Below, in pieces: positions 6,202 to 57,608 of a DNA stretch of 64,000 bases. The stretch is taken from positions 124,001 through 188,000 of the forward strand of contig JAIXWR010000034.1 in NCBI GenBank assembly GCA_027491155.1, read 5' to 3'. The DNA is from Verrucomicrobiaceae bacterium. Lineage in GTDB: Bacteria; Verrucomicrobiota; Verrucomicrobiia; Verrucomicrobiales; Akkermansiaceae. Numbering within the stretch: the stretch's first letter is position 1; each line of letters begins with the position of its first letter. The notes under the pieces are model-generated. The model was given only the letters and a program-made list of their open reading frames with translations, did not search any database and was not told the origin of the DNA. The position numbers and the translations under genes were made by a program.

Positions 6202-7338
6202 ATGCGCTTTCCCCACGGCCACCTCGCCTACTGCACGAACATCCACCCCGCCGAGGACTGGGCCAGCACCTTCCGCGCGCTGGACACCCATGCGATGAAG
6301 GTCCGCGACCTGGTCGCGCCCGGCCAGCCCTTCGCCATCGGCCTCCGCCTCTCCGCCAAGGCCGCCGCCGAACTGCTGCGCGGCGAGGAACTGAACGAGT
6401 TCAAAACCTGGCTCGGCGAGGAGAACGCCTACGTTTTCACCATCAACGGCTTCCCCTACGGCGACTTCCACGGCACCCGCGTGAAGCGCAATGTCTTCCG
6501 CCCCGACTGGAGCGACCCCGCCCGCCTCGAATACACCAAGGAGCTCTTCACCATCGTCTCCGAACTGGTGCCGGAAGGCATCGACGGCTCCGTCTCCACC
6601 CTGCCCGGCTCCTTCAAGGAATTCGGCGCGAACGAGTCGATGATCCACGACCACCTGATCGAGCTCGCCGCTTTCCTCGATTCGCTGAGCGAGGTCTCCG
6701 GCCGCGACCTCCACCTCGGCATGGAGCCCGAACCGCGCGGCCACTTCGAGAACACCGAGGAGACCCTGCGCTTCTTCGACCGCTTGCTGAACGCCGCTCC
6801 GGACCACGAACAGATCAAGCGCCGCATCGGCATCAACTACGACTGCTGCCACTTCGCGCTCCAGTACGAGGAAGCCCGTAGTTCGCTGACCGCCCTCCGC
6901 AACGAAGGTTTGCGCCTTTCAAAGATCCACCTCTCCTCCGCCCTCGCCCTCGACCCGCGGGTGCCGCACGCGATCGAGTCCGTCCGCGCCTTCGACGAGC
7001 CGACCTACCTCCACCAGGTGCTCGCCCGTCACCCCGACGGTCGGATCGAGCGCTTCACCGACCTCCCCGACGGTCTCGCCTCGCTCGACACCGCCGACGG
7101 CCGCGATGCCGAGCAATGGCGCGTCCACTTCCACATCCCGCTCGACGCCGCCCCCGCCGAGCCGCTGCGCAGCACCCGCCAGCACGCCCGCGACGCGCTT
7201 CAGCTCGCCGAGGAGATCCCCGGCCTCTGCTCGCACTGGGAAATCGAAACCTACACCTGGGGCGTGCTTCCCACCGAGATGCAGCGCCCGGTGGAAGAAC
7301 AGATCGCCGCGGAATACCGGTGGGTGTTGGGCGGCTGA
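6202..7338 (+). CDS. eboE: EboE-like metabolite traffic protein (TIM-barrel, sugar isomerase-like)
   Basis: The 378-residue protein matches the EboE family by its hallmark segment ENAYVFTINGFPYGDFHG followed by VKRNVFRPDWSDP, and by an N-terminal GHLAYCTNIHPAEDW. EboE proteins have an AP-endonuclease-2/xylose isomerase-like TIM barrel; LGMEPEPRGHFENT and GINYDCCHFALQYE supply the expected acidic and histidine residues near the barrel mouth. In cyanobacteria and Pseudomonas the ebo genes are linked to export or processing of secondary metabolites such as a scytonemin precursor, but the reaction is not established. Here it lies 48 bp upstream of an EboC-like gene and next to a type III polyketide synthase trio. 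No eboA, B, D or F was seen in the window. Confidence 0.82.
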   Translation: MRFPHGHLAYCTNIHPAEDWASTFRALDTHAMKVRDLVAPGQPFAIGLRLSAKAAAELLRGEELNEFKTWLGEENAYVFTINGFPYGDFHGTRVKRNVFRPDWSDPARLEYTKELFTIVSELVPEGIDGSVSTLPGSFKEFGANESMIHDHLIELAAFLDSLSEVSGRDLHLGMEPEPRGHFENTEETLRFFDRLLNAAPDHEQIKRRIGINYDCCHFALQYEEARSSLTALRNEGLRLSKIHLSSALALDPRVPHAIESVRAFDEPTYLHQVLARHPDGRIERFTDLPDGLASLDTADGRDAEQWRVHFHIPLDAAPAEPLRSTRQHARDALQLAEEIPGLCSHWEIETYTWGVLPTEMQRPVEEQIAAEYRWVLGG

Positions 7339-7386
7339 AACTCCCTCTTTCAGCATTTCAGTTTTCAGCCTTTCAGCCTTTCAAAG

Positions 7387-8397
7387 ATGTCCCGCGTCCG
7401 CGCCCTCCTCGCCACCCTCCGCATCGCCAACGCGCCGAGCGTGGTGAGCAATGTGTTACTGGGCTACCTGATTGGCCCTCTCACTCTGATCGTTGACTGG
7501 ACGCGTTTCGGAACTGTGACCCTGCCTTGGCTCGTTATCGCGGATCTCATAACCGACTGGCCGCAAGCCGCAACTTTGGCCGGGTCCGGGCTTTGCCTCT
7601 ATTTTTCTGGTAACCTGGCCAACGACTGGTTCGACCGCGGTTGGGATCAGTCCAAGCGTCCCGAACGGGCATTGCCTTCCGGTCTCTTCAGGCCGAGCAG
7701 CTATCTGTTCGCATCCATCGTCACTTCGGCTTTGGGCATTGCGTCGGCGTTTTCAGTCGGGCCGTATTGTGGGTTGTGTGCATTGGCAGTCACCGGACTG
7801 ATTGCCCTCTATACTTGGCTGCACAAGCGGACTCTTTGGTCCATAATACCCATGGGACTTTGTCGCTCGGGACTCTATTTTCTCGGCTTCATGGCGTTTT
7901 TCCCACGGCCAGAGTTTGGCCTCGGAACGAACAAACTTGCCTCGTTCGCATTGATTGGAACGCTGGCTACCGGACTTTTCGCTTACATTGCCGGTCTGAC
8001 GCTTTCAGCTCGATATGAAGGAAAGGACAATCCTCCACCTGGTCCAATTGCCGTTTCCAAAGCGCTCTTGGGATTGCCAGTTCTCGCAATGTCCTGCTGG
8101 TTCTTTGCCCAATTCCCCGTTGCCGGGCTGATCGGGATATTACCATACGTCGTCTGGCTTGTTCTCTGTCTCACTCGTTTCCGGAAACCGATCCCGAAAT
8201 ACGTATCAGCGCTCCTCGCCGGAATCCCATTGGTCGATTTCATCGCTGCCGCACCACTCGCGATCGGATTGCCCAGGATATTATGGGGGGACTATCAGAC
8301 GATTCTGATGTTTCCCAACTTGATGACCCTCCTCCTCATCCCTCTCATCGCCTTCATCCTCGGCCGCCTGCTCCAGAAAGTCGCCCCGGCGACGTGA
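7387..8397 (+). CDS. eboC: EboC-like UbiA-family membrane prenyltransferase homologue
   Basis: The 336-residue polytopic membrane protein has about eight or nine hydrophobic helices. The UbiA first aspartate-rich motif is present as NDWFDRGWDQ (Asn79, Asp80, Asp83, Asp87) followed by SKRPERALPSG. UbiA proteins transfer prenyl or similar lipid groups to aromatic or other acceptors. The EboC branch accompanies EboE, which is the gene directly upstream. Base composition is odd: the first 20 codons and the last 20-25 codons are GC-rich like the neighbours, while the middle (about 7446-8320) is visibly AT-richer and uses codons such as ATA, TTA and AGG that its neighbours avoid. This suggests gene conversion or transfer. 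The gene converges on the polyketide synthase gene across a palindromic repeat. Confidence 0.78.
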   Translation: MSRVRALLATLRIANAPSVVSNVLLGYLIGPLTLIVDWTRFGTVTLPWLVIADLITDWPQAATLAGSGLCLYFSGNLANDWFDRGWDQSKRPERALPSGLFRPSSYLFASIVTSALGIASAFSVGPYCGLCALAVTGLIALYTWLHKRTLWSIIPMGLCRSGLYFLGFMAFFPRPEFGLGTNKLASFALIGTLATGLFAYIAGLTLSARYEGKDNPPPGPIAVSKALLGLPVLAMSCWFFAQFPVAGLIGILPYVVWLVLCLTRFRKPIPKYVSALLAGIPLVDFIAAAPLAIGLPRILWGDYQTILMFPNLMTLLLIPLIAFILGRLLQKVAPAT

Positions 8398-8402
8398 CTG
8401 CT

Positions 8403-8521
8403 CCGGGAGCGCCGGTCTGCGACCGGCCGAAGCCAGTGGAAGGCAGGCTTAGAAGCTACGGGTCGGAGCGAGTGGCAGGCAGTGGAGGACCGTTCTGCCG
8501 GTCGCAGACCGGCGCTCCCGG
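8403..8521. repeat. Inverted palindromic repeat pair (REP-like), GGGAGCGCCGGTC type
   Basis: Two perfect 25-bp inverted copies (8403-8427 and 8497-8521) flank about 70 bp. Each copy is itself a hairpin: a GGGAGC head followed by GCCGGTC-tgc-GACCGGC. A single half copy occurs at 57135-57159. The element lies between the convergent eboC and polyketide synthase genes and could act as a bidirectional terminator. Confidence 0.85.
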
Positions 8522-8526
8522 TAAAA

Positions 8527-9549
8527 TCACCGCCACACCTCGCAGGCATGAGCGGCAAATCCCGCGCCGAAGGCCGTCAGCCACCAGCGGCGATCCCCTT
8601 CCGCCGCCGCCACCGCCTGCTCCAGCGCGAACATCACCGAGGGGCTGCTCATGTTCCCGTGGTCGCGCAGCACCCCGCGCGTCTCTTCCAGCGTGAAGGG
8701 CAGCACCGCCTCCAGGGCATCGATCACGTCCCGCCCGCCGGAATGCGCCAGCACCCGGTCCGGCTCGCCCTGCCGCTGCGCCCACAGCTCCGCCACCGCT
8801 TCCGCCGCCAGCCCCGGCACCGCCTTGTCGAGCTGGTTGCGCAGCTTGCCGCCGGCATTGACGAAGCGGATCTTCTCCCGCTGCTCCGGCCGGTGGACGG
8901 TGGTGAAATGCCCGGCCTGCCATTTGCCCTCGCCCGGGACATCCGACCACACCGCCGCCGCGGCGCCGTCGCCGAAGAGGCAGAGGGAAATCAACACGCC
9001 CGGATCGTCGTCGGCAAAGAAGGCCGCGGAGCACACCTCCACCGCCACCGTCGCGACCTTCGCCCCGGGATTCAGCGCGAGAAAGCCGGCGGCCGAGCGC
9101 AGCATCGGGATCGCCGCGCCGCAGCCGAGGCCCACCAGATCCTGCAAGTACGCCGTTTCCCGTAGTCCGAGCGACTCCGCGACATGGCTGGTCACGCCGG
9201 GGCAGAGGTAGCCGGTGCAGGTGCAGATGAAGAGCGCGTCCAGATCCGCCGCCGCGATCCCCGCCTTTTCCAAGGCCGGCACCAGCGCCGCCGCCGCCAG
9301 CCGCGGGGCCTCGCGCTCGAAGGTCTCGTTGAGCTGCTGCGCGTCGCGGCCGACCACCGGCGCGATTTCGGGCAGGCAGAAGCTCCGCGTGGCGATGCCC
9401 GACGCGCCGTTGCCCAGGATCTTCTCCATCATCGTCCGCGAGCGCGGCTTCAACGCCGCGAAGGCCGGGGTGGAAGCCAGCGCTTCGAGGCACTCCGGCT
9501 GGGTGAAACGGTGCGGCGGGACGGCGGAGGCGATCGATTCGAGGAACAT
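8527..9549 (-). CDS. Type III polyketide synthase (chalcone/alkylresorcinol synthase family)
   Basis: From the ATG at 9549 the protein is 340 residues, normal for bacterial type III PKS. The catalytic triad is visible: Cys143 in [12 protein letters not shown], His269 in [13 protein letters not shown] and Asn299 in [12 protein letters not shown]. Such enzymes condense an acyl-CoA or acyl-ACP starter with malonyl units and cyclise the chain to resorcinol, pyrone or related rings. The start overlaps the stop of the upstream FAD oxidoreductase by one base (TGATG), so the two are translationally coupled. With the methyltransferase and FAD enzyme it forms the same trio as the Streptomyces srsA-srsC-srsB phenolic lipid locus. 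A fatty acyl starter is therefore likely but not shown. Confidence 0.93.
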
Positions 9550-10565
9550 CAGCGGACAAGGGAAAGCAAAGGACGGAAAGGCAGCGCGCCGGAACGCGCC
9601 AGCACTTCGAGAAAGGTCCGGCCGCCGCGGCGCAGCAGCACCGGATGCATCGCCGAGGCCACCCGCAGGCGGCGGTGGAAGCGCTGCCGCAAGCCGCGGC
9701 GGATTTCCGCGACGCAGGCTTCCCACGGATGCGAGCCACGGCTCCAGCGCTCCAAGGGATCCAGCGCGACCTCCGCCGACTGGAAGGCCATGCTCATGCC
9801 GTTGCCGGTGAAAGGCGGGATCATGCTCTCGGCATCGCCGATCGCGCAAAAGTCATCCTCGATCTCCTGCCGCCCCAGCTCGAAGCCCGCGACCGCACTG
9901 AACGACACCTCGTCCGCCCGCGCCGCCTTCAAGCGCTCGACCAGCTTGTGGTTCCCGCCGGCCGAAAGGTAGTCGAGCAGCAGTTCCGGCCCCGGCGCGC
10001 GACGGCTGCGGTCGACCTTGAAGAGCCCGCAGACATTCACCCCGCCGTCCTCGATGCCCGCGAGTCCCGCGTAACCGTTGGCCCCCAGATGCATCTCCAG
10101 GTCGGCCACCATTTCCAGATCGTGAAAGTGGCACTTCAGCCCGATCCACGGACCGCGCTGCGGGATCCGCCCCGCCGCCCAGACCAGGCCTTCGCGCGGC
10201 TCCCGGAGCTGCCGGGATCGCTCGTGGACGATTCCCCCCGCCGCGATCGCCCGGTCGCGCAGCCGCAGGTCCAGCCGGTGCCGCGAAATCCCCAGTGCCG
10301 GCGCGGGCAGGACGTCCTCGTGGATCTTCCGGCCCTCGCGGAACCACGCCACGCCGCTATGCAGCAGGGCGTCGCCGAAGTCCGCGCGAATCCCCAGCGC
10401 ATCGAGCGTCGACGCTTCCACCCCGGAGATGAACTCCCCGCAGACCCGGTGCCGCGGATAGCTCCCGGCTTCGTGGACCTCCACCGCCACGCCGCGCGAA
10501 CGCAAGCCGCAGGCCAGGGAAAGCCCCGCCAATCCGCCGCCCGCGATGGTCACCGTCCCGTTCAA
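9549..10565 (-). CDS. FAD-dependent oxidoreductase (geranylgeranyl reductase/hydroxylase type)
   Basis: The protein begins with a Rossmann FAD-binding motif, [19 protein letters not shown], then the [11 protein letters not shown] segment characteristic of the geranylgeranyl reductase/aromatic hydroxylase flavoprotein group. The later [23 protein letters not shown] stretch is the second FAD-contacting motif. I place the start at a TTG (10565) because it overlaps the methyltransferase stop as TTGA, the usual four-base coupling arrangement, and puts the Rossmann motif at residues 4-22 (338 residues total). Upstream in-frame codons would reach far into the methyltransferase gene. By analogy with SrsC it may hydroxylate the resorcinol ring; a reductase acting on polyprenyl or acyl chains is the alternative. 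Confidence 0.88.
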
Positions 10566-11203
10566 GTCCGGGACGCTAGCACGCGCAGCCCGCCGCGCCA
10601 GCTGGTTTCCTCGCGAACCCGCCACTCCGGGGACGCAAGACCTAACAACTCCGGCAGTTCGCCCGGCACGAACCCGGCGCGGATGCTGACGACCATGTCG
10701 TGCTTGGTCGCCCGGCCGACAAAAGGCAGCATGATCCTCGCATCCATCAGCGTCTGCGCGGTGCGGAAGGGCTCGTTGATGCAGATCACCTCGAAGTTCC
10801 GCATCAGCGGGGCGAAGCGCCTCAGCTCCGGCTCTTCGAAATGATGGAGGAACAGGTTCGCCGCGAGGATCCCGCCGGACTCACCCGCCAGGCACTCGAA
10901 GACATCGCGCTGGTCCCAAGCGATCCGCTCCTCCAGCCACGGCGGCCGCGGCGCGAGGTCGCAGGCTTTCAGCGGGATCCCGGGATGCGCCTTCGCCAGC
11001 TTCTCGAGCAGGGTTCCCTCGCCCGCGCCGATCTCCAACACGCCCTTCGCCCGGGCTTCGGGGAACTCGCGCACCTGCCGGGCGATCCAGCGTTCGTTCC
11101 CCATCAGGAAATTGATCACCTTGAGGTCGATACGGCTGCGGGCCACGTCGGGATGATCCGGCGGCAGTTGATCGATGATTTCGGGCTCTACAACTCGCTG
11201 CAT
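10562..11203 (-). CDS. Class I SAM-dependent methyltransferase
   Basis: The 213-residue protein carries the SAM-binding motif VLEIGAGEGTLLEKL (about residues 55-69) and a plausible motif II/post-I acidic residue in LKACDLAPRP. It is first in the operon methyltransferase, FAD oxidoreductase, type III PKS, overlapping the FAD gene by four bases. By position it corresponds to SrsB-type O/C-methyltransferases of phenolic lipid loci. The start ATG at 11203 leaves only 30 bp to the divergent lipoprotein gene start, so promoters for both directions must be very compact or overlap the coding sequences. Confidence 0.88.
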   Translation of the reverse strand: MQRVVEPEIIDQLPPDHPDVARSRIDLKVINFLMGNERWIARQVREFPEARAKGVLEIGAGEGTLLEKLAKAHPGIPLKACDLAPRPPWLEERIAWDQRDVFECLAGESGGILAANLFLHHFEEPELRRFAPLMRNFEVICINEPFRTAQTLMDARIMLPFVGRATKHDMVVSIRAGFVPGELPELLGLASPEWRVREETSWRGGLRVLASRT

Positions 11204-11233
11204 CGCGGTTAGAGCGTGGCCCCGGCTTCCCCG

Positions 11234-11986
11234 ATGCGCAAGCTTCCCGCCATTTTCTCCCGACTGCTCGCGGCGCTCGCCTGCCTCCTGCTGGGCGCCT
11301 GCTTCGACATCCGCGAGGAAGTCTGGATCCATCGCGACGGCTCCGGCCGCGCGGAGCTGAACTACACCATCCCCGAGTCCGCCCTGCTGCTCGGCGGCGG
11401 AATCGCGGGTCTGGAGCAAAAGGTGCGCGAGCTGGTCGCCACCGAGCCGAAGGTCCGCCTCGATGACGTGAAGGTGAGCACCGCCGCCGGCGAGGCGAGG
11501 ATCGCGGTGAAGCTTTCCACCGACTCCATGCTCTCGCTGCTCGAGTTGCAGGAAAGCGAGGCCTTCCAGGAGCTGCCCGACGCCGCCGGGAACATCGCCG
11601 GGACCGTGGTCGTGAAGCTGCGCGGACTGGACATCGACTTCACCCGCACCGTGAAGGTCCGCGAGGCGCTCGGACTGGCCAGCCTGGCGATCGGTGCCGA
11701 GGACCGGCGGGACCGCAGCTTGGAATACATCATCCACCTGCCGAAAGCGCCGAAGGAATCCAACGCGACCCGCACCGAGAACGGCGGCAAGACCCTTGTG
11801 TGGAAGGCGACCCTCGGCGAGGCCCTGAAGCGGCCCTTGGTCACCCGCTTCCGAGCCGCGCTGCCGATCCCGTGGTATGCCCACGCCGCGGCCGGCTTGT
11901 TGCTGGCCGGCATCGTCGCGCTGGTCCTGCGCCTCCGCCGCAAACGCCGCCAGCGCCGCGAGGACGCCTGCATGGTGGATCTCTGA
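11234..11986 (+). CDS. Lipoprotein with C-terminal membrane helix, unknown function
   Basis: From the ATG at 11234 the protein is 250 residues, starting with a lipoprotein signal (MRKLPAIFSR then a hydrophobic stretch ending LLLGAC, Cys23). A GTG 18 bp upstream is possible but would put extra residues before the signal. The body resembles the LppM/YidC-anchored-type lipoproteins seen near membrane assembly genes, with ACFDIREEVWIHRDGSGRAELNY at the mature N-terminus. Near the C-terminus is one transmembrane helix (about residues 215-233) followed by a basic tail RLRRKRRQRR. It is divergent from the methyltransferase operon and converges on the patatin gene. I cannot give a function. Confidence 0.75.
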   Translation: MRKLPAIFSRLLAALACLLLGACFDIREEVWIHRDGSGRAELNYTIPESALLLGGGIAGLEQKVRELVATEPKVRLDDVKVSTAAGEARIAVKLSTDSMLSLLELQESEAFQELPDAAGNIAGTVVVKLRGLDIDFTRTVKVREALGLASLAIGAEDRRDRSLEYIIHLPKAPKESNATRTENGGKTLVWKATLGEALKRPLVTRFRAALPIPWYAHAAAGLLLAGIVALVLRLRRKRRQRREDACMVDL

Positions 11987-12013: not shown

Positions 12014-12856
12014 TCAATCCAACCCGCCCCACTCCCGCCCCGTCTTCTCCCCGGCAGCGAAATACCCCCGCGCCTTCCCGCGGTGCAGCAAGCCCGGACA
12101 TTCATGCCCGGTCTCCAGAAACACCAGCCGCTTGCCCGAAGCCTCCGCCTGCTCGCAGCGCCGGCGGTGCAGCTCGCTCGCCGCAACGCCATGGCAGGCC
12201 CCGAGGATCGCGCCCGGCGTCCGCCACGGCAGCCCGCCCATCTCCGAGGTGTGGCGAATGCGGTGCACCACGATGGTGTGGACCGTCGGGTCGTCCAGCC
12301 ATTGATCAAAAGGACTCTCGTTCGCCACGCCGCCGTCCAGGAATTCCTCGCCGCCGATCCGCTGCGGCTGGAACAGCACCGGCATCGAACAGCTCGCGAT
12401 CATGAACTCGTTCAGCGGCCCGTGGTCGCGGACCTCCGGGCATTGCCGCGTCAGGTTCGACACCGCGATCTCCAAACGCGGGCTCTTCAGGTCCTCGATC
12501 CGCCGTTCGCCGATGCAGCGCGAAAGGTAGCGCCGCATCCGCACGCCCGACAGCAACCCGGCCCCCGCGATGCCGGTGACGATGCCCGGCAGCCGGAAAA
12601 AGGCCCCGAGGTCGAAGAAGGCGCGCAGGAAGTGGAAGTCGTAGATGATCTTCGCCAACTCCTCGCCACGCAGCCCCGCCGCCCACAAGCCGCCGGCCAA
12701 GGCTCCCGCCGAAGCTCCCGCAAGCCGCCCCGGCCGCAAGCCCCGCTTCTCCATCGCGCTGAGCAGGCCGAGATGCGCGTAGTAGCCGAAGAACGACGAG
12801 GACAGGCAAAGCGCCAGCCCGGGATCGGACGGTGGAAGTGCGGACTCCTCGCTCAT
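12014..12856 (-). CDS. Patatin-like phospholipase family protein
   Basis: The 280-residue protein has the patatin Ser-Asp dyad: the nucleophile elbow GASAG (Ser49) and the DGG motif (Asp174, in EFLDGGVANESPF). The oxyanion region near residues 18-32 (LSSSFFGYYAHLGLLSAM) deviates from the usual GGGxRG. Patatins hydrolyse acyl esters of lipids. It is the last gene of the reductase-ACP-membrane protein-lipase operon, and its ATG overlaps the upstream stop (ATGA). It may release or trim an acyl chain from the operon's product, which is an inference. Confidence 0.87.
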   Translation of the reverse strand: MSEESALPPSDPGLALCLSSSFFGYYAHLGLLSAMEKRGLRPGRLAGASAGALAGGLWAAGLRGEELAKIIYDFHFLRAFFDLGAFFRLPGIVTGIAGAGLLSGVRMRRYLSRCIGERRIEDLKSPRLEIAVSNLTRQCPEVRDHGPLNEFMIASCSMPVLFQPQRIGGEEFLDGGVANESPFDQWLDDPTVHTIVVHRIRHTSEMGGLPWRTPGAILGACHGVAASELHRRRCEQAEASGKRLVFLETGHECPGLLHRGKARGYFAAGEKTGREWGGLD

Positions 12857-13857
12857 GGCTCCTCGTGGGTGGTTTCCTCGATCGCCTTGATCGAGGTCCG
12901 GTCGGACGGGCGTAGGAACAGCAGGCCGCCGACCAGCGACCAGACCAGGTTCCGGCAGGCGAAGCCGATCAGCGAACCGCCGACCGCCACTTCCGCCGGC
13001 ATGCCCGCGAGGTCCTTCATCAGGACCTCGAAGGTCTTTTCCCGCACCCCGATCCCCGAAACCGAGAGCGGCAGCGCGCTGATCGCCTCGACCACCGGCG
13101 TGGTGCAGATCACCGTCCAAAGGTTCTCCGCGTGGCCGATCGCATGGAAGCCGCACCAGAAGATGGAATACTCCACCGGCAGCATGGCCACGCTCGCCAG
13201 CAGGGCGAGCAGGGCGTGCCCCCATTTCTTACGATAGACATCGTAGATCTCGGGCACCCGCCGCAGGACGTCCCACTTCATCTCCCGGCCCGGCTTGTGG
13301 ATCCGCCCGTGGACCCAGGGGCTGGCCATCACGAACATCAGCGCGATCAGCGCCAGGCCGCCGCCGAAGAACACCCAGCCGAAATGGATCGCCCCCTTGC
13401 CCATCGCGCTCTGGTTTTCCAGGGCGTCGAAGCGTCCGGCGGTCACCGCGAAGAAGAGCAGCGACATCGCGACCAGCCCGACCAGGTGATCGACCATCAG
13501 GGACATCGTCACCGCCAGCTTGCGTTCGGGATGCTGGCGGTTGAGGAGAAAGACCTTGGCCGCGTCCCCGCCGACGCCGCCGACCGTGACCAGGTTGAAG
13601 ATCTCGCCCATCAGGGTCAGCTCGAAGCCCCGCGCTAGCGAAACCCGGATGCCCTGGGCGCGCAGGAGGATCCACCAGCGCACCGCCGAGATGAAATAGG
13701 TGAGCCCGCCGAGCGCGATCCCGGCGGCGATCCATTCCCAGCGGAGTTCCGACGGCCGCAGCAGCGGCGACTTGCTGAAGTCCTGCCCCGAAAAGGCCCA
13801 CCACAGGCAAGCCGCGGTGAAGAGCAGTTTCGCGGCAAACAGCAGCCACTTCTTCAT
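12853..13857 (-). CDS. LPG synthase N-terminal/UPF0104 (YbhN-like) flippase-type membrane protein
   Basis: The 334-residue integral membrane protein has about seven or eight helices and the family hallmark GEIFNLVTVGGVGGDAAKVFLLNR, followed by VDHLVGLVAM and ISALPLSVSGIGVREKTFEVL. This is the domain fused to lysylphosphatidylglycerol synthetases and also found alone, where it is thought to flip lipids or prenyl-linked molecules. It overlaps the ACP gene upstream and the patatin gene downstream by four bases each. Its place between an acyl carrier protein and a lipase suggests that it moves the lipid made here across the membrane. Confidence 0.85.
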   Translation of the reverse strand: MKKWLLFAAKLLFTAACLWWAFSGQDFSKSPLLRPSELRWEWIAAGIALGGLTYFISAVRWWILLRAQGIRVSLARGFELTLMGEIFNLVTVGGVGGDAAKVFLLNRQHPERKLAVTMSLMVDHLVGLVAMSLLFFAVTAGRFDALENQSAMGKGAIHFGWVFFGGGLALIALMFVMASPWVHGRIHKPGREMKWDVLRRVPEIYDVYRKKWGHALLALLASVAMLPVEYSIFWCGFHAIGHAENLWTVICTTPVVEAISALPLSVSGIGVREKTFEVLMKDLAGMPAEVAVGGSLIGFACRNLVWSLVGGLLFLRPSDRTSIKAIEETTHEEP

Positions 13858-14114
13858 CCCTTCTCCTCGATCGCCTTGGCGATGGTCTCGACGCTCTGGA
13901 GCACGCCCTTCGCCTTCTCGGCATCGGCGATCTTCAGGCCGAAATGCTTCTCGATCGCGACGACCAGCTGCAAGGCATCCACCGAATCCAGCCCGAGGCC
14001 GCCAGCCCCGAAGATCGGCGTTTCATCGGCGATCTCCGACGCATCGAAGTCGAGCATCAGCTCCTCGACCATCGTTTCCTTGATCTTCTGCCGGAGTTCC
14101 GCGCCTTGTGCCAT
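13854..14114 (-). CDS. Acyl carrier protein
   Basis: The 86-residue acidic protein has the phosphopantetheine attachment motif GLDSVDALQLV (Ser44), preceded by an unusual double-glycine GAGGLGLDS loop. Size and helix pattern fit a standalone ACP. It sits 13 bp after the FabG-like reductase gene and overlaps the flippase-like gene. It is a specialised ACP rather than housekeeping AcpP, because the usual fabD-fabG-acpP-fabF neighbours are absent; it probably carries the acyl chain used by this operon or by the nearby polyketide synthase. Confidence 0.92.
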   Translation of the reverse strand: MAQGAELRQKIKETMVEELMLDFDASEIADETPIFGAGGLGLDSVDALQLVVAIEKHFGLKIADAEKAKGVLQSVETIAKAIEEKG

Positions 14115-14127
14115 GATGGTGAGCTTG

Positions 14128-14853
14128 TTAGAAAATGCCGCCGTCGATTTTCAGGGCGGAACCTGTGACGTAGGCGGCATCGTGGCAAGCCAGAAACCGC
14201 ACCGCGCAGGCCACTTCGGCCGGGGTGCCGAAGCGCCGCATCGGGATGCCCGCCTTGGCCCGCTTGGCCGCTTCCTCGTCCATGTGGGACAGCGCCTCGG
14301 TGGCGATGTAGCCGGGCAGCACGGCGTTCACCGTGATGCCGGCGCGGGCGACCTCCTTGGCCAGCGTCTGCGTCAGCGCGACCACACCGGCCTTGGCGGC
14401 GGCGTAGTTCGTCTGGCCGAGCGGCGGCAGGATGGCGCTGAGCGAGGCGATGTTGACGATGCGGCCGAAGCGCTGCGCCATCATCGGGCGGATCACCGCG
14501 CGGCAGCCGAGGAAGACGGAGTCGAGGTTGGTGGAAATCACCGACGACCAGGCCTCGTCGGGCATCGAGGCGAGCAAGTGGTCTTGGTGGAGGCCGGCGT
14601 TGTTGACCAGCACGTCGAGGCGGCCGTCGGTGTCGAGGATGGTTTTGACCGCGGCTTCCCAGCTCTCGTTGGAAGTGACTTCGAGATCGACGGTCTCGCA
14701 GCGACCGGGGAACTCCGCCGCGAGGGCGTCGGCATTCGCCCGGTTCGACCGCACGCCGAGCCAGACCTTCGCGTCCGGCTCGTTTTCCAGAAAATAGCGG
14801 CCGATCCCGAGGCCGAGGCCGCCGTTCCCGCCGGTGATGAGGATGCTTCGCAC
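14128..14853 (-). CDS. FabG-like 3-oxoacyl-ACP reductase (SDR family)
   Basis: The 241-residue short-chain dehydrogenase has the cofactor motif TGGNGGLGLG (7-16), NNAG (84-87), the catalytic serine in NIASLSA (about 137-139) and the YxxxK pair Tyr150/Lys154. C-terminal NAVLPGYIATEA and GSALKIDGGIF match FabG-type reductases, which reduce 3-oxoacyl-ACP with NADPH. It is the first gene of the four-gene operon and is directly followed by an ACP gene, which supports an ACP-linked substrate. Confidence 0.9.
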   Translation of the reverse strand: MRSILITGGNGGLGLGIGRYFLENEPDAKVWLGVRSNRANADALAAEFPGRCETVDLEVTSNESWEAAVKTILDTDGRLDVLVNNAGLHQDHLLASMPDEAWSSVISTNLDSVFLGCRAVIRPMMAQRFGRIVNIASLSAILPPLGQTNYAAAKAGVVALTQTLAKEVARAGITVNAVLPGYIATEALSHMDEEAAKRAKAGIPMRRFGTPAEVACAVRFLACHDAAYVTGSALKIDGGIF

Positions 14854-57067: not shown

Positions 57068-57608
57068 GGGCGCAGATTGAACGGCCAAAACGTGGAGGCA
57101 ATTCGAATCCTTGGTGAGTTTTTAGAGAAGCCCCCCGGGAGCGCCGGTCTGCGACCGGCCGTTCGGTCCCACCCACCCCGCCTCATCCACCAAGCCATCG
57201 ATTGTCCAAAACCCGCCCCGCATTTCACAAGCGCAACCGCCTCAAACCCCGTCCCCACAAGGATTCCAAGCCCATCGTCCCGCCCTGGCAACCCGTGCAC
57301 CATGCCCATCCCCCGCCATCCGCCCCCGCCTTCAGAGCACCGCACCCCGCGATGCGATGTCCCCACGATGTACCACAATGCCCGGCATGTCGGAACCCTC
57401 ACCAACTTCTCCCGATCTTCCCAAGTGGCAAACTTGTCAAAATCGCAAGCCGCGGATTCATGGCATCAAGATATCGAAAATCTCCCACGATCCTCGACTT
57501 TCCCGCTTTCCGAACCAAATACGATCCGTTTCTCCATCCAAGACCGGACTCTTCCCCGCTCTCTAACAGCCGAGAACTTTCGGCAGGGGCATCGTTTTCA
57601 CGATCCGG
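57068..57608. other. 541-bp non-coding region upstream of the Bat operon
   Basis: Bounded by the TPR gene start (minus) and the hrpA stop (minus), so the Bat operon promoter should lie in the part near 57068-57200. It contains one half copy of the GGGAGCGCCGGTC repeat (57135-57159) and one GCTGTTAGA word (57562-57570). From about 57400 it is noticeably less GC-rich than the surroundings. Small frames here translate into REP-type peptides (AGRRPALPG) or low complexity and were not accepted. Confidence 0.55.
57135..57159 (+). repeat. Single palindromic repeat unit, GGGAGCGCCGGTC type
   Basis: Identical 25 bases to the left arm at 8403-8427 (head GGGAGC plus hairpin GCCGGTC-tgc-GACCGGC). No inverted partner is visible within the gap, so it is a solitary unit, 68 bp upstream of the TPR gene start. 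Confidence 0.8.

Follow-up and report, generated by a model that had tools for sequence, protein, structure and literature searches.

Why does a pair of ebo genes face a three-gene polyketide operon in a verrucomicrobial genome, and do the two groups serve one pathway? The window, the whole 64,000-nucleotide stretch analysed here (Verrucomicrobiaceae bacterium, Akkermansiaceae; GCA_027491155.1, contig JAIXWR010000034.1, positions 124,001-188,000), contains eboE and an eboC-like gene tail to tail with a trio of genes for a methyltransferase (MT), a flavin adenine dinucleotide (FAD)-dependent oxidoreductase and a type III polyketide synthase (PKS). Our analysis suggests that these are probably two envelope-lipid pathways that can be separated and have long been neighbours, with coupling between them possible. 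Coordinates are window positions; G, g, C and L numbers stand for sampled genomes, genera, contigs and loci respectively, G000 being the window's own genome and g1 its genus, which we take to be Luteolibacter-like. The features of the locus are as follows.

6202-7338, plus strand: eboE, a TIM-barrel protein (NF035939, 432.8 bits versus a cut-off of 250)
7387-8397, plus strand: eboC-like gene for a UbiA-family membrane protein (Pfam UbiA, 59.2 bits)
8394-8530, no strand: repeat doublet of the convergent junction (inverted arms 8394-8431 and 8493-8530)
8527-9549, minus strand: type III PKS (Chal_sti_synt_N, 50.2 bits)
9549 to about 10565, minus strand: FAD-dependent oxidoreductase of the geranylgeranyl reductase/aromatic hydroxylase superfamily (FAD_binding_3, 24.2 bits, cut-off 22)
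10562-11203, minus strand: S-adenosylmethionine-dependent MT, probably class I (Rossmann) (sub-threshold matches only)
11216-11986, likely start 11234, plus strand: small lipoprotein (lipobox-like Cys, folded domain, C-terminal helix)
12014-14853, minus strand: flanking block of patatin-like, LPG-synthase-TM (flippase-like) and short-chain dehydrogenase/reductase (SDR) genes (Pfam matches for the first two, an NCBIfam reductase-type SDR match for the third)

An earlier note on this DNA had described eboE and eboC as lying tail to tail with a phenolic-lipid-type set of MT, flavoprotein and type III PKS, and both the arrangement and the gene identities are borne out by the coordinates and profile matches. 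EboE scores well above the cut-off of its equivalog model, and the MT matches are all sub-threshold (Methyltransf_12, 19.2 bits; Methyltransf_25, 17.7 bits; PRK06202, 34.4 bits). Searched against the sequences of solved structures, PKS matched 127 distinct sequences (best 1u0m, E 3.1e-24), the FAD protein gave five weak matches, MT one weak match and EboE none. Stop and start codons touch or overlap at both the PKS/FAD and FAD/MT junctions, about 130 bp separates the facing stop codons of the EboC and PKS genes, and the lipoprotein gene is divergent from the MT gene.

The check proposed for this pairing was conservation of gene order across relatives, most of which did not show the two groups together. 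We sampled 144 genomes of the order, the window's own included and most of them from its genus and family, and counted as contacts all gene pairs within 5 kb, leaving out EboB matches of 43-45% identity (16 genomes), EboC matches below 60 bits except that of G001, all second hits, PKS matches below 250 bits and lipoprotein matches weaker than E 1e-9 (6 genomes). EboE and PKS are in contact in 7/75 genomes with both and share a contig in only 12/75, many of the genomes being drafts, where location on separate contigs does not establish a large distance. Contacts between EboC and PKS number 8/72, between EboB and PKS 1/75, between EboD and PKS 0/77, and between EboD and the lipoprotein 0/59. Within the family, 17 genomes have EboE but lack PKS and five have PKS but lack EboE; among these, a contig end probably explains the EboE gap of G001, and some of the single-occurrence genomes are incomplete. 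Outside this sample, a collection scan retained the best 80 of at least 430 confirmed PKS relatives and may omit records near the window genome; none of these best 80 named loci, several of which extend less than 10 kb on one side, had a match to EboB, C, D or E, with the limit that a distant EboC may have escaped the rapidly diverging EboC query. An Ebo-trio cluster conserved across relatives is rejected on these two counts.

The trio, by comparison, is an independent, widespread operon. Among 30 PKS loci, the window's included, the FAD gene adjoins PKS in 30/30, MT adjoins the FAD gene in 29/30 and the whole trio is together in 29/30. Of 16 further loci whose PKS is at least 42% identical, 13 likewise have the complete trio, one of these (L175) in the order PKS-MT-FAD; of four loci with PKS at 28-31%, three have PKS only and one has a weak FAD match adjoining and an MT match about 6 kb off. 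Within the best 80 of the at least 430 loci, MT was found in 47, the FAD protein in 45 and the lipoprotein in two, and no record was titled cyanobacterial or planctomycete. Many Verrucomicrobiota have the order MT-FAD-PKS; other members of the phylum, like several Proteobacteria, have PKS-MT-FAD. Residues C143, H269 and N299 of PKS, which we take to be the catalytic Cys-His-Asn triad of the family, are invariant in 25/25 aligned sequences, and the enzyme should therefore be active.

The earlier note had also read the ebo pair as a reduced system of E and C only, which does not hold, since candidates for EboB and EboD lie at two other places of the same genome. The EboB candidate (C3:86894-87688) belongs to the TatD family (33.8 bits, cut-off 27) and is 75% identical to the protein at the EboB position of a relative. 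The EboD candidate (C3:11299-12471) is dehydroquinate-synthase-like (PRK06203, 497.1 bits versus a cut-off of 333) and separate from the AroB equivalog on C26. We take the PRK06203 protein as EboD because its gene adjoins eboC in relatives (within 5 kb in 26/115 genomes with both) and because PMC5133447 describes EboD as a sugar phosphate cyclase resembling AroB, an assignment by position and family description rather than by an EboD model. The Ebo genes of this genome thus lie at three separate places rather than in a contiguous operon. In G109, eboB, eboE, eboC and eboD are consecutive within about 4.1 kb (locus L273, searched by tblastn). A search of the window's genome with the EboA model gave no match, and none of the 14 controls gave one either. 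The model matched 4/288 genomes of the phylum, all four among the 115/288 with an EboE match, and is therefore able to detect EboA. In family f38 (L269:8295-9835 and L270:6931-8360), an EboA-domain gene directly precedes an EboB-like gene (40-41% identity), with eboE on another contig.

Across the 144 genomes, EboB, C, D and E are rarely missing, and their genes are usually scattered. EboE matched in 134, EboB in 137 (16 of these only 43-45% identical), UbiA/EboC in 137 (some weak enough for another UbiA protein) and the EboD query in 142, some at AroB level only, so that EboD was judged missing in six. Two genomes, G019 and G081, each 99% complete and both of genus g3, have none of EboB, C, D and E. 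The co-absence probabilities were 9e-7 for B-C, 1e-5 for C-E, 4e-4 for B-E, 0.0013 for both B-D and C-D, and 0.056 for D-E (Fisher's test, ignoring phylogeny and assembly gaps), indicating that B, C and E were lost together and D less clearly. In g3, presumably the small-genome genus Akkermansia, EboE is present in 13 and missing in nine of the 22 listed genomes. On a rather unlikely reading, taken up again below, an EboA-less, scattered Ebo set would serve most sampled Verrucomicrobiales as a core pathway for a lipid carrier, kept even in many g3 genomes. The joint absence in two nearly complete genomes offers a natural experiment on Ebo function. Ebo, supposed to be a secondary-metabolite operon, thereby belongs to the genes that a bacterial order widely retains, in a phylum where EboA is rare. 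Within the literature searched, no report named eboE together with Verrucomicrobi- terms, and those naming eboC with Akkermansia looked unrelated.

The best NCBIfam model for the 7387-8397 protein is EboC, yet the score is 71.2 bits against a cut-off of 250. Its NDxxDxxxD motif is invariant across 15/15 aligned EboC-like proteins, and EboC lies within 5 kb of EboE in 49/115 genomes with both; by position and by Asp-rich motif it qualifies as a UbiA-type EboC. EboC diverges far faster than its neighbours: between the window and G010 (L059), EboC is 61-64% identical, EboE 95% and PKS 95%.

Within the genus, the surroundings of eboE were read over as much as 20 kb in 16 genomes in addition to the window's, with less covered in G005 and at contig ends. 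PKS is present in 17/18 genomes of the genus and adjoins EboC in seven of these 17 (G000, G001, G002, G009, G013, G014 and G017); the identical tail-to-tail order occurs in G042, a genome of another genus. A long block, SDR-flippase-patatin-lipoprotein-MT-FAD-PKS-EboC-EboE, is common to G000, G002 and G009, and the arrangement therefore looks inherited within the genus. In G003, G012 and G015 this block is kept up to PKS and EboE-EboC are elsewhere, which places the break between PKS and EboC, and in G010 EboE-EboC-patatin is retained and lipoprotein-MT-FAD-PKS lies at another place. The order of the patatin, flippase-like and SDR genes beside the trio is the same in G002, G003, G009, G012 and G015. 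Adjacency required five changes on the PKS tree (30 rows) and four on the EboE tree (28 rows), values as low being reached by 14/500 and 3/500 label shuffles respectively, so adjacency is more clustered than in most shuffles. The tail-to-tail adjacency thus looks inherited in the genus, broken repeatedly and not obligatory, and the neighbourhood is a clue to joint function rather than proof of it. Two observations belong beside these: in several genomes of the genus, the inherited block beside the trio includes the patatin-like and LPG-synthase-TM (flippase-like) genes (12014-13857), and G016, which has no PKS match, carries an MT-like stretch (37%) beside EboC (L065:7181-7702), a possible relic of the trio. 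G042 has two EboB-like genes, on C215 and C176.

We favour two separable pathways because EboB and EboD are present in the window's own genome and B-E-C-D are contiguous in G109, because B, C, D and E are jointly absent in G019 and G081, and because the trio is conserved without Ebo and the block breaks in G003, G012, G015 and G010. On this account, eboE-eboC would be one piece of an Ebo pathway, with eboB and eboD located elsewhere in the genome. From what is known of these families, EboD would cyclise a sugar phosphate, EboC, with its prenyltransferase metal-binding motif kept, would join the cyclised product to an isoprenoid in the membrane, and EboB and EboE would modify the result. The MT-FAD-PKS operon, judged by its architecture and catalytic residues, would make a long-chain alkylresorcinol, hydroxylated and methylated in a hierridin-like manner, and the lipoprotein, transcribed divergently, probably acts in the envelope on a product of the region. 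The tail-to-tail arrangement would be ancestral in the genus and not obligatory.

The lipoprotein gene links the two groups by position. It was found in 66/144 genomes, and its Cys23 is invariant in 28/28 aligned sequences (L149 and L164, which have an inner stop, were excluded from the alignment). It lies within 5 kb of PKS in 18/55 genomes with both (g1, g7, g12 and g16) and of eboE in 17/58 (g1, g10 and g16). In 8/8 genomes of g10 it directly follows eboE on the same strand, with 21-61 bp between the two matched stretches, in two genomes of g12 it lies 109-129 bp behind PKS, and in g1 and in G023 of g7 it is divergent to MT. No Pfam family exceeded its cut-off (DUF4381 was sub-threshold at 13.3 bits), and the search of solved-structure sequences gave no match. 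The AlphaFold model, built from three sequences, has a mean predicted local distance difference test score of 65.4 and a helix at 214-248. A guess that it is an LppM-like lipid carrier was not supported. PMC10896814 describes lipoprotein and lipid/isoprenoid-binding genes next to one PKS ("S. ferox"). Being linked by position to a phenolic-lipid operon, this lipoprotein is a concrete gene for functional study.

Several points weigh against the separability of the two pathways or against our reading of their products. Genomes of the family hold the lipoprotein and PKS together more often than expected by chance (55 genomes with both, 14 with PKS only, five with the lipoprotein only and 15 with neither; p 1.2e-5, Fisher's test ignoring phylogeny), where the 14 include G083, whose weak lipoprotein match was dropped. 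The lipoprotein also neighbours eboE and so bridges both groups by position. Its model had no match in the PDB at E of 0.001 or lower, and a second structure comparison, with a best Z of 7.6, gave no usable lead. In none of the 144 genomes does EboC reach the curated cut-off, which leaves room for a different specificity, and the naming of EboB is based on its position and TatD membership, no EboB-specific model having matched. Finally, we infer the putative product of each pathway from its genes.

A pure genomic accident, in which a rearranging chromosome juxtaposed unrelated gene sets in one ancestor, overlaps with our favoured explanation and is possible, if on balance unlikely. The junction itself has features consistent with it. 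An inverted pair of a dispersed palindromic repeat fills the EboC-PKS junction (8394-8530) and is predicted to fold strongly (z -6.5); its 21-mer core, GAGCGCCGGTCTGCGACCGGC, has 33 copies in the genome at no more than two mismatches, 22 of them exact, against one for the reversed control. Judging from the window's own junction, the doublet is a plausible site of neighbourhood breaks, and adjacency has been lost repeatedly. The dispersed repeat is also present at window positions 57141-57159. Accident alone, however, sits poorly with the lipoprotein recurring close to one group or the other in five genera (eboE in g1, g10 and g16; PKS in g1, g7, g12 and g16), more often than the roughly 0.25% per genome estimated for a 5-kb distance on a chromosome of 4 Mb, and with the same order in another genus (G042).

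The earlier note had proposed that an Ebo system handles the product of the trio. In its functional form, an Ebo-made carrier or the lipoprotein would take the alkylresorcinol or hydroquinone through the inner membrane, and proximity would reflect this coupling; such a carrier has been proposed for the scytonemin monomer in Nostoc. The old adjacency in the genus, its recurrence in G042 and the lipoprotein, which lies behind eboE in g10, behind PKS in g12 and divergent to MT in g1 and G023, all favour this view. Against it, the groups were not seen together in most relatives, with EboE and PKS each occurring without the other in the family, EboD never in contact with PKS or the lipoprotein and EboB in contact with PKS once; moreover, the Ebo and trio groups are convergent and therefore not co-transcribed. 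We regard coupling as doubtful. The broader proposal that, in this family, a single envelope system depends on both Ebo and the hierridin-type trio, the 11216-11986 lipoprotein being their shared hand-over protein, is likewise put forward tentatively, as a rather unlikely one. That EboC prenylates the aromatic product of the trio to a prenylated alkyl-hydroquinone (meroterpenoid) is very improbable: the EboC homologue Ubi-297 is described as farnesylating quinoline acids and, moderately, 1,3-dihydroxynaphthalene (PMC9235831), and one cyanobacterial hierridin-type cluster is described with a prenyltransferase (PMC8086630), but Ubi-297 is reported to give none with phenols or catechols (PMC9235831), EboC-like matches occur in genomes without PKS, and EboC is close to PKS in only 8/72 genomes.

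With separable pathways as the preferred explanation, each group can be set beside its known counterparts. The srsABC genes of Streptomyces unite a PKS, a methyltransferase and a flavoprotein in one phenolic-lipid set, in which SrsB would be a membrane-type methyltransferase, different from the MT here, which looks class I. The likeness to srsB/srsC/srsA drawn earlier stands as far as a phenolic-lipid set is concerned, and the nearest described architectures are hidABC and a planctomycete operon rather than srs alone. As described, hidABC of cyanobacteria and the planctomycete MT-oxidoreductase-PKS operon share the three-gene order and the PKS triad (PMC10896814, PMC8086630); the present trio belongs to another phylum and has the divergent lipoprotein gene adjoining, and the likeness is one of architecture, not of direct sequence comparison. 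Hierridin-type clusters are reported in two orders, hidA-hidB-hidC (MT-FAD-PKS) and hidC-hidA-hidB (PKS-MT-FAD) (PMC8086630), and the planctomycete operon, which makes alkylresorcinols, is ordered MT-FAD-PKS (PMC10896814). Another close known system, by its description, is the operon for polyketide quinones in mycobacteria and Streptomyces (PMC9927152).

For Ebo, the eustigmatophyte/bacterial operon of Nostoc, Bacteroidetes and plastids, in the accounts of PMC5133447 and PMC6282210, has been proposed to make a prenylated cyclitol-type compound. The window's genome shares with it a full EboE member, an EboD-type sugar phosphate cyclase, a TatD-type EboB and a UbiA-type EboC with the Asp-rich motif, and differs in having the genes at three places, no detected EboA and an EboC far below the family cut-off; eboD of Nostoc is likewise described outside the main ebo cluster (PMC6282210). 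Among the trio loci, that of Pelagicoccus (L209:11070-13825) has a YceI-type gene 3' of PKS and a scramblase-family gene further on.

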